From Calditrichales bacterium MX18-03 (GTDB taxonomy: Bacteria; Bacillota; Clostridia; Lutisporales; Lutisporaceae), in assembly GCA_021083345.1 (NCBI GenBank), contig JAJGRE010000005.1, forward strand, positions 124,001 to 188,000: a stretch of DNA of 64,000 nt. Direction: 5' to 3'. The notes under the pieces are model-generated. The model made no database searches. It had not been told where the DNA came from and saw only the letters and a program-made list of their open reading frames with translations. Both the position numbers and the translations under genes were made by a program. Below are positions 10,462-20,509 of this stretch, piece by piece (within the stretch, counting starts at the first letter, position 1; every line of letters starts with the position of its first letter).

Positions 10462-11408
10462 TTAGCGTGTATGAGTTGCGACATCTAATGCCATCGCCGG
10501 GTTTTCAATCAGTATTTGACTCATCACGGTATCCGGTATGCCTTTTGATTTGCAAAGAGGGATGAATTTGGTAAATATATTATTGTAGGACCTAAGCTTG
10601 GTATCCTTAACCTCACCTATTTCATAGCAACCGGCATCCTGTGATATCAGTACCTGATTCGACAGTTTATCTTCTATAAGGCTTTGCAGCAGGCCTATTT
10701 GCACCTCATACGGCTCTGGAAAAGCACTAATTGCATCGATTTCCACCCAGATACCTTTCCTTGCTAGCTTCAAAATAGTTGGATAGTCATTGGACCAATC
10801 GATATGAACCCAAATGAACTTATTGAAGGGAAGATTTTCTTCTTCTATGATTTCAACTGCTTTAACTGCACTTGTAGAAGAGCCTATATGACATTCTATA
10901 GGTAATCCTGAGATAAGACTTGTTCTAGCTGCAGCTCTCAGCAGCTTTTCCTGCATCTCTGAAACAAAGCCCTCATCACCTAATGCAAGCTTGATGAAAC
11001 CTGGCGGATACCTGTACCATCTATTCCTGCCTGAAATTCCTGTACCCATGCTTCTGCAATCTTGTTCGCATCCATGTTTTTAATTTCGTCAGGTATGAAC
11101 TTTCCTCTATATTTTCCGCCGTCCCATGCACCGCAGTTTGTAATGATATGAAGACCTGTCCTCATGGCACATGCCTTAAGTACATCTACATCTCTTCCGG
11201 CTCCATAAGTGGTTGCTTCCACTAATGTTTGACATCCTAACCTTTTCAGCTCAATAAGATAGGGTACCATTGTGTCGACTATCTCTTTTTTGCTGTAAGG
11301 CACGCGGCCATTCTTTTCCGCTCCGTTCCAATCCCATATGATATGCTCATGCATCAAAGTAATACCTAGCTCTGCCGGTTGTATTTCCCCCAGAACAGTT
11401 CGAATCAT
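10462..11408 (-). pseudogene. Frameshifted phosphotriesterase-like hydrolase
   Basis: Two overlapping minus-strand frames (10980-11408 and 10462-11049) together give one complete phosphotriesterase-family protein of about 315 residues. The first frame has the metal motif M-H-E-H-I and reads to G-I-D-G-T-G-I-R. The second resumes at P-G-F-I-K-L-A, whose lysine would be the carboxylated metal bridge, and continues through H-I-D-W and S-Q-D-A-G-C. One base is missing at a GG run near 11003-11004; adding one G on the plus strand restores a continuous frame. Either the gene is broken or the base was lost in sequencing. The intact enzyme would be a binuclear-metal hydrolase, probably a lactonase or esterase. 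The original start is the ATG at 11408 behind GGAGGGG. Confidence 0.8.
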
Positions 11409-11540: not shown

Positions 11541-11609
11541 GGTACCTTTGCCCTTTCCGGTGGATATAATGATTATATGGATGTATAAAAGCAAGGCAGG
11601 TGGACAAAT

Positions 11610-11885
11610 ATGAGTTCTTCTTCATCATCTTCTTCAAGCTCATCATCATCTTCTTCAAGCTCATCATCATCTTCTTCGAGCTCAAGCAGGTACTACTGCT
11701 GCAAAAGAAGAGGAAGCAGGCACTATAAGCGTTCACATGGACACTGCTGCAGCATTTTTGACGCAATATTGAAGGCCTTAAGCGATTTGGAAAGCTTTAT
11801 AGGCTCTTGCTCCTCCTGTTCATCGTCTTCATCCTGGAGTTCAAAGCGCCGCTGCAAATGCCGTAAAAAGCGGCATTCCAGTTAG
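11610..11885 (+). CDS. Small polyserine, Cys/Arg-rich protein (putative kinase substrate)
   Basis: 91 residues. Residues 2-26 are 25 consecutive serines. Next comes a short Tyr/Cys/Arg/His segment (R-Y-Y-C-C-K-R-R), then a mildly hydrophobic middle (I-F-D-A-I-L-K-A-L), then a second Ser/Cys cluster and a basic tail with C-K-C-R-K-K-R. There is no signal peptide and I recognise no domain. AGGTGG lies 7 bp before the ATG, which supports real translation. The stop codon is 4 bp before the kinase start, so the two genes are translationally coupled. My inference is that the serines are phosphorylated by the kinase. Ser/Lys/Arg-rich tails of spore coat proteins such as CotB and CotG, phosphorylated by CotH, are the closest known analogy, but I see no homology that proves a coat role. 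Confidence 0.65.
   Translation: MSSSSSSSSSSSSSSSSSSSSSSSSSRYYCCKRRGSRHYKRSHGHCCSIFDAILKALSDLESFIGSCSSCSSSSSWSSKRRCKCRKKRHSS
11625..11687 (+). repeat. 3 x 21-bp in-frame tandem repeat (serine codons)
   Basis: Three copies of a 7-codon unit (TCA TCT TCT TCA AGC TCA TCA) run in frame, the last copy with two codon changes. TCN and AGC codons are mixed in a fixed order, so the serine run grew by unit duplication and its length may vary between strains. Confidence 0.8.
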
Positions 11886-11889
11886 AAAT

Positions 11890-12612
11890 ATGATTATGAA
11901 GCTGCTGGACACTGATATAAAATACTCTGCCGGACAGTATCTTGAAGGTTTCAAGATCGTAAATAGAATCGGAGAGGGTAGGTATGGGACATGCTACCTT
12001 ATAACAGATGATAAAAACCTCTACATATTGAAGCAGCTTAAGAAAAGATTGTACCAGGAAAATCTGCTGAAGGCACATTACGAGGAAGACATTCTTAAAG
12101 CTCTGAAGCATGACGCAATTCCCGGATTTGTAATGAAGATAGAGAATAAGCAATTTGTGGGATATGTACTGGAATATAAGCAAGGCATAACCTTTGAGGC
12201 TATGATCTTTAAACAAAAGCGAATTTTTACGCGAAGTGAAATATACGGTACAGGTAAGCAGTTGATTCGTATCTTGAGCTATTTGCATGGAAAAGGAGTC
12301 GTTCACAGAGACATAAGGGTTCCTAATACATTACTCGACGGAACGCATATTTACTTAGTGGACTTTGGTTTGGCAAGGTGGATCGATGATAGAAAATATA
12401 AGGCGGACATAGACTTTTCGTATTTCGGAGATTTTTTGATATATCTTTATTACACATCGTATTTGGATAAGACAAAGAAAAGCAAGCCATGGTATGAAGA
12501 ACTGACCTTAGGCGGCAAAGAGCTGGTATTCCTGAAAAAGCTTATGGGGATTGAAAAAAGATACAAGAGCATAGCTGAAGTAGAGATAGATTTTGAAGAC
12601 ATATTTACTTAA
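11890..12612 (+). CDS. Minimal Hanks-type Ser/Thr protein kinase
   Basis: 240 residues, a kinase domain with nothing else: no membrane helix, PASTA or sensor domain. Visible motifs are the glycine loop G-E-G-R-Y-G (28-33), the ATP lysine Lys48, a helix-C glutamate near 65-66, the catalytic loop H-R-D-I-R-V-P-N with Asp141 and Asn146, and D-F-G at 158-160. The usual lysine after H-R-D-x is an arginine, as in many small bacterial kinases. The C-lobe is short and lacks an obvious A-P-E motif. It should be active on Ser/Thr. There is no clear ribosome site before the ATG at 11890 (an ATG at 11896 is also possible); the polyserine gene ends 4 bp upstream, so translation is probably coupled and that protein is the obvious substrate candidate. 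Confidence 0.85.
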   Translation: MIMKLLDTDIKYSAGQYLEGFKIVNRIGEGRYGTCYLITDDKNLYILKQLKKRLYQENLLKAHYEEDILKALKHDAIPGFVMKIENKQFVGYVLEYKQGITFEAMIFKQKRIFTRSEIYGTGKQLIRILSYLHGKGVVHRDIRVPNTLLDGTHIYLVDFGLARWIDDRKYKADIDFSYFGDFLIYLYYTSYLDKTKKSKPWYEELTLGGKELVFLKKLMGIEKRYKSIAEVEIDFEDIFT

Positions 12613-18748: not shown

Positions 18749-20509
18749 TTGGCGCTGCTCAACGATATCGTGGATTATGTTCAAAAGACATCGGAAATCA
18801 TCGCAAGTGTTTTGGATATTGAGGTCATCATATGCGACAATCATTATAGGATACTGGGGGACAGCGAAGACAAGCCCGCTTCGGAGCCAAGCTATATCAG
18901 TGAAACATCTTTACTGAATGAAGTGATTGAAGAGAATAGGATCGTATTCATCAGCAACAGGGATGACCATATAGGCTGCCTGTCCTGCAGCAAAAGGAGC
19001 AGGTGCCAGGTCCGGTCCATGGTTGGAATGCCCATTGTCCTGCATGGCAAGGCAATTGGGGCAATAGGCCTGTTAGCGCAGAATGAGGCGGCACAAAAGG
19101 CAATGCATGAGAAACTGGAGTATTTCAAGCAGTTTGTCCAGCAGATGTCGGAGCTGCTGATCGGCAAAGTCCGGGAGTACGAAGAGAATACGGCCTTATC
19201 GGTCATGAAGGAAAGGCTTATCAGCATTATCGAGTCGATGGACAGCGGTATCATTGCAGTTGACGAAGCAGGTATACCCACCTTCTTTAATTCCATGGTG
19301 TTTGACTTCCTGGATGAAAAAGCTGTACGATTGAAGACACCCCTTCACCGGTTGATCGAAAAGCCGTATGTCCGAAGCCTAATAGAAAACTGTGAGGATT
19401 TTAAGAACAAGGAAGTCCTTTTTACAAAGAACGGCAGGCAAGTCCATGCACTGATCAGCGGAAGGCCTGTTATCTTTATGAATCAAAGCGCCGGGGCAAT
19501 CCTGACAATCAAAAAGATATCGGATATCTACGAAGAAGTAAACCAGCTTTCAAACGCCGATATGCAGGCAGGCCTGGATGATATCATAGGGCAAAGCGAA
19601 CAGGTCATCAGCCTGAAGAAAAAGATCATCATTATTGCAAAGAGCAAATCCACCGTTTTGATTACAGGCGAGAGCGGAACGGGAAAAGAACTGATTGCCA
19701 GGGCGCTGCATAACTGCAGTGCGATGCCTGGTAAACCGTTTATTGCGTTGAATTGTGCTGCCATCCCCGACAGCTTGCTGGAAAGCGAACTTTTCGGCTA
19801 TGAGGAAGGTGCCTTTTCCGGTGCCAAAAGAGGCGGAAAACTGGGCAAGCTTCAGCTGGCACATGGGGGAACCCTCTTTCTGGATGAAATTGCGGAGCTG
19901 TCGCTGCATTTGCAGGCTAAGCTTTTGCGGGTCCTGCAGGAGCGCTGCATCGAGAAGCTGGGCGGTATAGGAACCATTCCCATCGATTTACGGGTGGTGG
20001 CTGCCACCAATCAGAACCTTGAAGAGATGGTAACGACAGGTGAGTTCAGGGAAGACCTCTACTACCGTTTGAATGTCATCCCGCTGCACATTCCTCCCTT
20101 GAGGGAGAGAAGGGGCGATATACCGCTTCTGCTGGATTATTTCCTTGGAAAGTACAATACTAAGCTGAACAAGAGGATATCCGGATTTAGTGAGGACGCA
20201 AGGGAAGTGCTGCTGCAGTACTCATGGAAAGGCAATGTCCGGGAACTTCAAAATGCAGTTGAATATGCTGTGAACATGGCAGATGGAAATTACATCCGGT
20301 TAAAGGATATCCATATCCGGAATACGGCACCTGCCCTAACCAGCAGCCCGGCAACGGTGCAGTGTATGGATGACTATTTGATCGTTAGCATCCGGGAAGC
20401 GCTTAAGCAATTCGGTGCTGATACCCAAGGCAAAGATATGGCAGCGCAGGCTCTTGGAATCAGCAGATCGACACTATATAGGAAAATGAAGAAGTACGGA
20501 CTGGAATAA
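18749..20509 (+). CDS. Sigma-54-dependent transcriptional activator (sensor-AAA-Fis HTH)
   Basis: 586 residues from a TTG behind GAGGTGG. The N-terminal sensor domain (about 1-150) is GAF-like and holds a cysteine group C-L-S-C-S-K-R-S-R-C near residue 72; a PAS-like domain follows (about 160-260). The AAA+ domain (about 275-510) has Walker A G-E-S-G-T-G-K-E, Walker B F-L-D-E-I-A and the sigma-54 loop written G-A-F-S-G-A rather than G-A-F-T-G-A. The C-terminus is a Fis-type helix-turn-helix (G-I-S-R-S-T-L-Y-R-K). It very likely activates the sigma-54 promoter at 16000. A terminator overlaps its stop codon. Confidence 0.9.
   Translation: MALLNDIVDYVQKTSEIIASVLDIEVIICDNHYRILGDSEDKPASEPSYISETSLLNEVIEENRIVFISNRDDHIGCLSCSKRSRCQVRSMVGMPIVLHGKAIGAIGLLAQNEAAQKAMHEKLEYFKQFVQQMSELLIGKVREYEENTALSVMKERLISIIESMDSGIIAVDEAGIPTFFNSMVFDFLDEKAVRLKTPLHRLIEKPYVRSLIENCEDFKNKEVLFTKNGRQVHALISGRPVIFMNQSAGAILTIKKISDIYEEVNQLSNADMQAGLDDIIGQSEQVISLKKKIIIIAKSKSTVLITGESGTGKELIARALHNCSAMPGKPFIALNCAAIPDSLLESELFGYEEGAFSGAKRGGKLGKLQLAHGGTLFLDEIAELSLHLQAKLLRVLQERCIEKLGGIGTIPIDLRVVAATNQNLEEMVTTGEFREDLYYRLNVIPLHIPPLRERRGDIPLLLDYFLGKYNTKLNKRISGFSEDAREVLLQYSWKGNVRELQNAVEYAVNMADGNYIRLKDIHIRNTAPALTSSPATVQCMDDYLIVSIREALKQFGADTQGKDMAAQALGISRSTLYRKMKKYGLE

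Follow-up and report, generated by a model that had tools for sequence, protein, structure and literature searches.

Eukaryotic SR proteins carry Ser-Arg repeats and serve splicing control together with their SRPK/CLK kinases. In Bacillus subtilis, the Ser/Thr kinase CotH belongs to the spore outer coat and is encoded in one cluster with CotB and CotG, which are reportedly rich in Ser, Lys, and Arg, probably disordered, carry many phosphates each, and are under sigma-K control (PMC7821199). PMC12747378 reports PrkC, PrkD, YabT, and YrzF as kinases of B. subtilis, PMC3416734 lists ybdM as a sigma-G core sporulation gene, and YbdM of B. cereus, a related stand-alone kinase, is reported to be active in vitro on CodY (PMC12583987). 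YbdM/PrkD and YrzF are small, soluble, stand-alone Hanks kinases of Bacillus and in this respect resemble the kinase described here.

The locus under study lies in a window of 64,000 nucleotides (the whole stretch of DNA that was analysed) and resembles CotH/CotG in that a Ser/Thr kinase is encoded with a Ser-rich, basic, and probably disordered partner (Table 1). Both components differ, however: CotH belongs to PF08757, whereas the window kinase belongs to PF00069 and has no CotH match among its Pfam matches up to an E of 1, and the window partner, unlike CotB/CotG, is without a family match (Pfam and NCBIfam, E up to 1). Direct repeats of Ser, Lys, and Arg as in CotB/CotG were not seen by eye in the window partner, which has poly-Ser instead. 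CotH was not found in the window genome, and its candidacy as a usual companion was rejected, as it is present in only 4 of 20 kinase genomes. By analogy, CotH with CotB/CotG is nevertheless the nearest functional likeness. The likeness to SR proteins lies in the partners of L037, L096, L097, and L098 (loci are numbered with L, genomes with G), which place Ser-Arg repeats next to a kinase from the same superfamily. In contrast, the window partner is poly-Ser with a longest Ser-Arg/Lys stretch of 2 residues (relatives reach 20) and matches no family, RNA-binding domains included, and the kinship of SRPK/CLK with the window kinase is at superfamily level only.

As stated in the initial annotation, a protein with 25 consecutive serines stops 4 nt before the ATG (11890) of a 240-residue Hanks-type kinase, an observation confirmed by the open reading frames and by PF00069 (83.6 bits, curated cut-off 31.7), further Pfam matches of the kinase being kinase families without exception. 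The remark that the kinase is nearly devoid of its own ribosome site likewise held, since no Shine–Dalgarno-like site was seen upstream of its start and it is the partner that carries one; this fits translational coupling of the kinase to the partner. The basic tail of the partner reads KRRCKCRKKRHSS. Downstream of the pair follow a PLP-dependent enzyme and a glycosyltransferase. Upstream, a phosphotriesterase-family gene (10462–11408, minus strand) is split over two overlapping frames that match profile positions 1–123 and 129–295, so that it is probably frameshifted or decayed. Elsewhere in the window, a sigma-54 activator (18749–20509, plus strand) was seen whose N-terminal part also matches the profile of the SpoVT C-terminal (GAF-like) domain.

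Table 1. Features of the partner–kinase locus, in window coordinates.
Feature	Position	Strand	Basis
Ser-rich, basic partner protein of 91 aa	11610..11885	+	ORF; kept in relatives
Run of 25 Ser codons (S2–S26), TCN and AGC/AGT mixed	11613..11687	+	
Head motif GSRHYKR (G35–R41), proposed kinase-docking element	11712..11732	+	Motif conservation; docking inferred
Cys/Arg/Lys basic tail (K79–S91)	11844..11882	+	
Partner ribosome-binding site AGGTGG	11598..11603	+	Direct reading of sequence
Stand-alone Hanks-type kinase, 240 aa	11890..12612	+	PF00069, E=1.9e-23
Glycine-rich loop GEGRYG (28–33)	11971..11988	+	Invariant in 13 aligned kinases
Catalytic loop HRDIRVPN (139–146), Arg replacing the usual Lys	12304..12327	+	Alignment of 13 kinases
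DFG (158–160)	12361..12369	+	Invariant in 13 aligned kinases
Weak sigma-K-like promoter candidate, AC-N17-GATATAATG	11544..11571	+	Relaxed pattern only

The adjacency of kinase and partner is real and extends well beyond the window. The test set beforehand, which looked for a Ser-rich frame beside the kinase in relatives, failed to refute the pairing: a partner lies directly upstream of the kinase in 73 of 77 distinct loci, one of these being fused in frame, and the other four comprise two without a partner, one cut by a contig edge, and one broken in the assembly. At L022 and L100, the roughly 400 bases upstream of the kinase hold no partner; at L017, a contig edge cuts the Ser-rich stretch, and a second contig of the same genome has a matching piece at its own edge; the assembly-broken L039 retains a partner-like tail. 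Among 11 less related Hanks kinases, including four others of the window genome, none has a partner just upstream, the whole kinase-sense flank having been scanned without a match at eight loci (L001–L004, L006, L040–L042). Stop and start are spaced by −10 or +4 nt in 12 of 13 loci and by −4 nt in one. These counts were made after removal of L079, L080, and L081 (partners letter-identical to those of L019, L028, and L018), L059 (same place as L052), L106 (same as L044), the duplicate places L005, L007–L010, L012, L013, L029, L030, and L032, L006 (no kinase-profile match), and the CotH loci L055–L057.

Within the family of the window organism (22 genomes), there are three clear relatives of the kinase with 75, 68, and 46 % identity. 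A Ser-rich frame immediately precedes the kinase in the first two (that of the second cut by a contig edge), and a zinc-ribbon partner does so in the third. Scanning the contigs of named genomes with a single protein gave no match; a four-kinase alignment gave 15 loci in Pelotomaculum, Desulfosporosinus, Clostridium, and uncultured Clostridia, and also in metagenome bins titled Legionella and Deltaproteobacteria, which we suspect to be mis-binned. The kinase was matched in 14 of 391 genomes of the class (E ≤ 1e-40), in 11 of 398 genomes of the phylum (1e-30), in 59 of 60 Bacillus-type genomes (family of G654; 1e-20, many via other kinases), and in 40 of 194 Clostridium-type genomes (family of G138; 1e-45). 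All of the best 20 Bacillus-type loci from the 60-genome search have a partner, and 27 new loci were read from the Clostridium-type search, some 15 further places being left out. Conversely, a partner profile run over 17 kinase-bearing genomes found its target in 16 of them at 19 places, 17 of which lie beside the kinase, and missed the fused copy in G908; the two places away from the kinase are a second copy in G938 and a contig-edge piece in G011. The second partner-like sequence of G938 (G938:C3:704928-705017) is located about 7.5 kb from the partner–kinase pair. A mobile origin was rejected, as viral contigs contained no relative of the kinase, a single query of 701 bases, the kinase DNA from one relative, matched nothing in phages, and plasmids held only more distant kinases of under 60 % identity, one of them with a partner on a Cytobacillus record. 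The kinase on a Mesobacillus plasmid (L058), which we take to be YbdM-like, differs from the window kinase in that it has no partner.

The nearest relative retains the Ser-rich frame (61 % identity), and dN is below dS both in the partner after the Ser run (0.33 vs. 0.54, window against nearest relative) and, in the same comparison, in the kinase (0.14 vs. 0.98). As the Ser runs mix both codon families (TCN and AGY), slippage of a single codon would not yield them, and the Ser tracts look to be under selection. Near-repeats of about 21 bases are visible by eye in the DNA of the run, and the length of the longest run differs between the window (25) and L014 (11 at most), both of which would suit a neutral microsatellite inside an unimportant frame; yet the mixed codon families, the conservation of frame and head with dN below dS, the ribosome site of the partner's own, and the Ser-rich stretches that relatives also carry make such an origin very improbable. 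The cysteine clusters pointed out in the initial annotation do exist in the window partner (8 Cys in 91 residues) but are not conserved, given that nine of 10 non-zinc-ribbon relatives have 0–2 Cys and L014 has 3, and because the cysteines vary in this way, the suggested cysteine-rich matrix is unsupported. The abundance of Ser and Cys might also recall the precursor of a peptide natural product whose phosphorylation by the kinase would precede lanthionine formation, and the kinase indeed touches the LanL/LanKC profiles; since these matches are far below the cut-offs, six neighbouring proteins that were tested include no cyclase or lyase, and the relatives are so poor in Cys, this explanation is scarcely credible.

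Five types can be distinguished among the 73 partners: Ser-run (3; the window, L014, and the fused L083), SSWS-ending or similar (26), zinc-ribbon (10), Ser/Ser-Arg-tail (13, among which L038 has lost its Ser-rich tail), and Bacillus-type (21). A head motif, G[HSGYCN].[YH]Y, is present in all 73, as compared to 1.3–5 % of shuffles, which measure composition only because the expression was drawn from these same sequences. With a profile of the SSWS type, 3/3 Ser-run, 10/10 zinc-ribbon, and 20/21 Bacillus-type partners score higher than each of 50 shuffles of their own sequence, as compared to 0/13 of the Ser/Ser-Arg-tail class. The zinc-ribbon profile recovers 2/3 Ser-run, 26/26 SSWS, 4/21 Bacillus-type, and 0/13 tail-class partners, the Bacillus-type profile 1/3 Ser-run, 17/26 SSWS, 7/10 zinc-ribbon, and 3/13 tail-class partners, and the Ser/Ser-Arg-tail profile 1/3 Ser-run, 2/26 SSWS, 2/10 zinc-ribbon, and 2/21 Bacillus-type partners. 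A common descent of the Ser-run, SSWS, and zinc-ribbon partners is well supported and its extension to the Bacillus-type partners fairly so; for the tail class, the case for common descent is one of position and motif. In the SSWS type, the partner end overlaps the kinase start by 10 nt in eight of nine loci, so that the conservation of SSWS may stem in part from this overlap. Family profiles run on nine partners gave a result above a cut-off for the zinc-ribbon partner of L025 only.

The tails are far more variable. Ser makes up 9–13 % of the zinc-ribbon partners (10 loci) and 20–33 % of the Bacillus-type ones, and Ser-rich stretches recur with differing make-up (poly-Ser, Ser-Arg, Ser-Tyr, Ser-Asn), including unbroken Ser-Arg stretches directly before the Hanks kinase of 16 residues in L037, 14 in L096, 20 in L097, and 10 in L098. 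Judging from these alignments and compositions, all partner types share the head, but only some have a serine-rich tail.

On the side of the kinase, the G-loop (28–33), K48, E65, HRD (139–141), N146, and DFG (158–160) are invariant in 13 aligned kinases. The initial description of a kinase with all catalytic motifs is therefore accurate for this core; it does not extend to the lysine of HRDxK, which is Arg in the window kinase (HRDIRxxN), nor to an APE/P+1 segment, none having been seen by eye in the alignment, although a degenerate form may be present. In the same alignment, 17 positions separate D158 from D175, the next Asp that is invariant; the Bacillus-type kinase L052 has a longer stretch after DFG, and a short activation segment is hence not common to that type. 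An AlphaFold2 model of the window kinase has a mean pLDDT of 87.2. Its structural matches are ordinary kinases throughout, with PknB in the top row of VIA-align (Z 21.4, rmsd 3.2, 218 residues aligned, other kinases near-tied) and PDK1 in the first row of Foldseek, the lack of other families from such lists not counting as evidence. We infer that the kinase of the window branch is active with its substrate site open, and a short activation segment would suit low-complexity substrates.

Partner type follows the kinase phylogeny closely. On a kinase tree of 75 rows, seven labels (the five partner types, none, and outgroup) need 7 changes, as compared to a minimum of 6 and a shuffled mean of 44, on a tree that was made by a quick method without bootstrap, is flagged for long outgroup branches, includes 12 of the 21 Bacillus-type kinases, and leaves out L039. 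The window kinase forms a clade with those of L014, L017, and L083 (four rows, SH-aLRT 100). The partnerless L040–L042 branch off between the partner-bearing kinases of the Bacillus type and those of Clostridia; provided that these long branches are rightly placed, the partner must have been lost on that line or else acquired on two occasions. L040–L042 come from three genomes belonging to a single genus; at each, another kind of small kinase comes immediately after a gene that resembles, by eye, an ABC transporter ATPase, and the two frames overlap. In L083 (oriented 1321–2220), a single uninterrupted frame of 299 residues comprises both partner and kinase; as other codons stand at the junction where the window has the ATG codons of the kinase, a reading error is an improbable source of the fusion, although a TTG further in could still act as a start. 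L083 is the only natural partner–kinase fusion found. Because of this fusion and because partner type tracks the kinase tree, kinase and partner very probably constitute a physical partnership.

What the partnership does is a more graded matter. Observed directly are the conserved neighbourhood of the two genes, their overlapping or nearly touching ends, the agreement of partner type with the kinase tree, a single in-frame fusion, and the intact kinase core. The partner would be translated before the kinase, whose own translation is probably coupled to it, and both proteins would thus be made together; the head, comprising GSRHYKR with its surroundings and the residues that follow, would dock the kinase, and the variable tail would carry the output. 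In the window branch, the kinase most likely phosphorylates the Ser-rich tail and the N-terminus many times, and multiple phosphates would turn a basic, disordered protein acidic and thus alter its assembly or binding. We regard it as probable that the pair is a conserved two-gene module of this kind, in which the head binds the kinase, the tail is the output, and Ser-rich tails are multiply phosphorylated in the window branch; for the narrower statement that the kinase phosphorylates the tail of its partner in that branch, the balance tips slightly in favour. The kinase–substrate pair proposed at the outset stands as far as the pairing is concerned (73 of 77 loci, fusion, tree), but a Ser substrate is not the function common to all, because zinc-ribbon partners are low in Ser and L038 is without a Ser-rich tail.

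These Ser-poor tails, the head as the one element common to all partner types, and the many basic tails that would suit polyanion binding would be expected if the partner were a targeting or activating subunit whose tails anchor it at various sites, with another protein as the real substrate. This reading is unlikely, however, as poly-Ser and Ser-Arg repeats arose beside the kinase in separate clades, as a phospho-acceptor would show, and as the fused copy L083 retains its Ser-rich stretch. The best reading is a dedicated kinase–adaptor module whose tail would be a phospho-acceptor in the window branch.

Promoter sequences bear on the conditions under which such modules may operate. The sigma-K-type consensus is AC-N16/17-CATANNNTA, and the ECF-type consensus is TGAAAC-N15-17-CGTA. 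Element lengths and spacing are given in PMC517825. A sigma-K-type site lies before all 13 Ser/Ser-Arg-tail partners (shuffle mean 0.14), a count over related and hence non-independent sequences with a pattern that was fixed after L035–L038 and others had been inspected, eight of the nine other tail-class loci having been inspected before being counted. An ECF-type site lies before all 21 Bacillus-type partners (L044, L052, L060–L078; shuffle mean 0.00), again over non-independent sequences and with a pattern set after their inspection, which suggests envelope-stress control of the Bacillus-type pairs. The strict sigma-K pattern was found in none of the three loci of the window clade, the 10 zinc-ribbon loci, or the 21 Bacillus-type loci, and the ECF-type pattern in none of the three of the window clade. 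A relaxed sigma-K pattern matched 12 of 31 loci (shuffle mean 2.62), with the start codon set a few bases out at some of them, and at the place equivalent to that of the window site, L014 has AC-N17-TATATAATG. In the SSWS type, 5 of 26 loci match a sigma-A pattern and 4 of 26 the sigma-K pattern, L087 matching both, so that no promoter is assigned there. Patterns for sigma-E, sigma-F, and sigma-G showed no excess over shuffles, the one sigma-G-like match being equalled in 39 of 300 shuffles.

For the Ser/Ser-Arg-tail branch, these promoters make a spore reading likely. A wider version of it, in which the window organism too would use the module to phosphorylate its spore coat in the manner of CotH/CotB/CotG, with production at a late stage in the mother cell and under sigma-K control, can be held only tentatively. 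It would agree with the sigma-K-type promoters of all 13 tail-class loci, the relaxed site upstream of the window gene, the failure to find CotH in the window genome, and the presence of SpoIVA in 18 of 20 kinase-bearing genomes, that of the window included. SpoIVA is common anyway, though, being found in 280 of 391 genomes of the class and in 9 of the 11 kinase-bearing ones among them, and a sporulation link by gene presence was rejected for want of a clear enrichment; in G133, the module is present (L034) but neither SpoIVA nor Spore_III_AE was matched; and both the missing strict site in the window clade and the zinc-ribbon loci and the ECF-type promoters of the Bacillus-type loci speak against it. 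The spore-coat role put forward in the initial annotation thus survives for one clade and not as a general rule, the window itself having only the weak site. A broader proposal joins both kinds of promoter: an old and general Bacillota counterpart of SRPK/SR, independent of CotH, in which the head docks a Hanks kinase and a Ser or Ser-Arg tail is multiply phosphorylated to control assembly, wired to sigma-K in some Clostridia and to ECF factors in the Bacillus type. This is conceivable, and we advance it with considerable reserve.

In Bacillus, yrzK presumably lies before yrzF, and we suspect the two to be a Bacillus-type partner–kinase pair. A literature search, with most subscription journals outside its scope, found no mention of yrzK and no description of the pair in work on YrzF/YbdM, CotH/CotG, or SR-type systems. 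On the best reading, the module would work like CotH/CotG or SRPK/SR proteins by analogy and belong to neither. For most bacterial Hanks kinases, substrates must be identified one at a time; here, the genome itself names a likely partner, at 73 loci with one fusion among them. If the tail is phosphorylated, the pair would represent a small, portable kinase–substrate system amenable to reconstitution in E. coli and, beside CotH, a second route to phosphoserine in the outer layers of spores.
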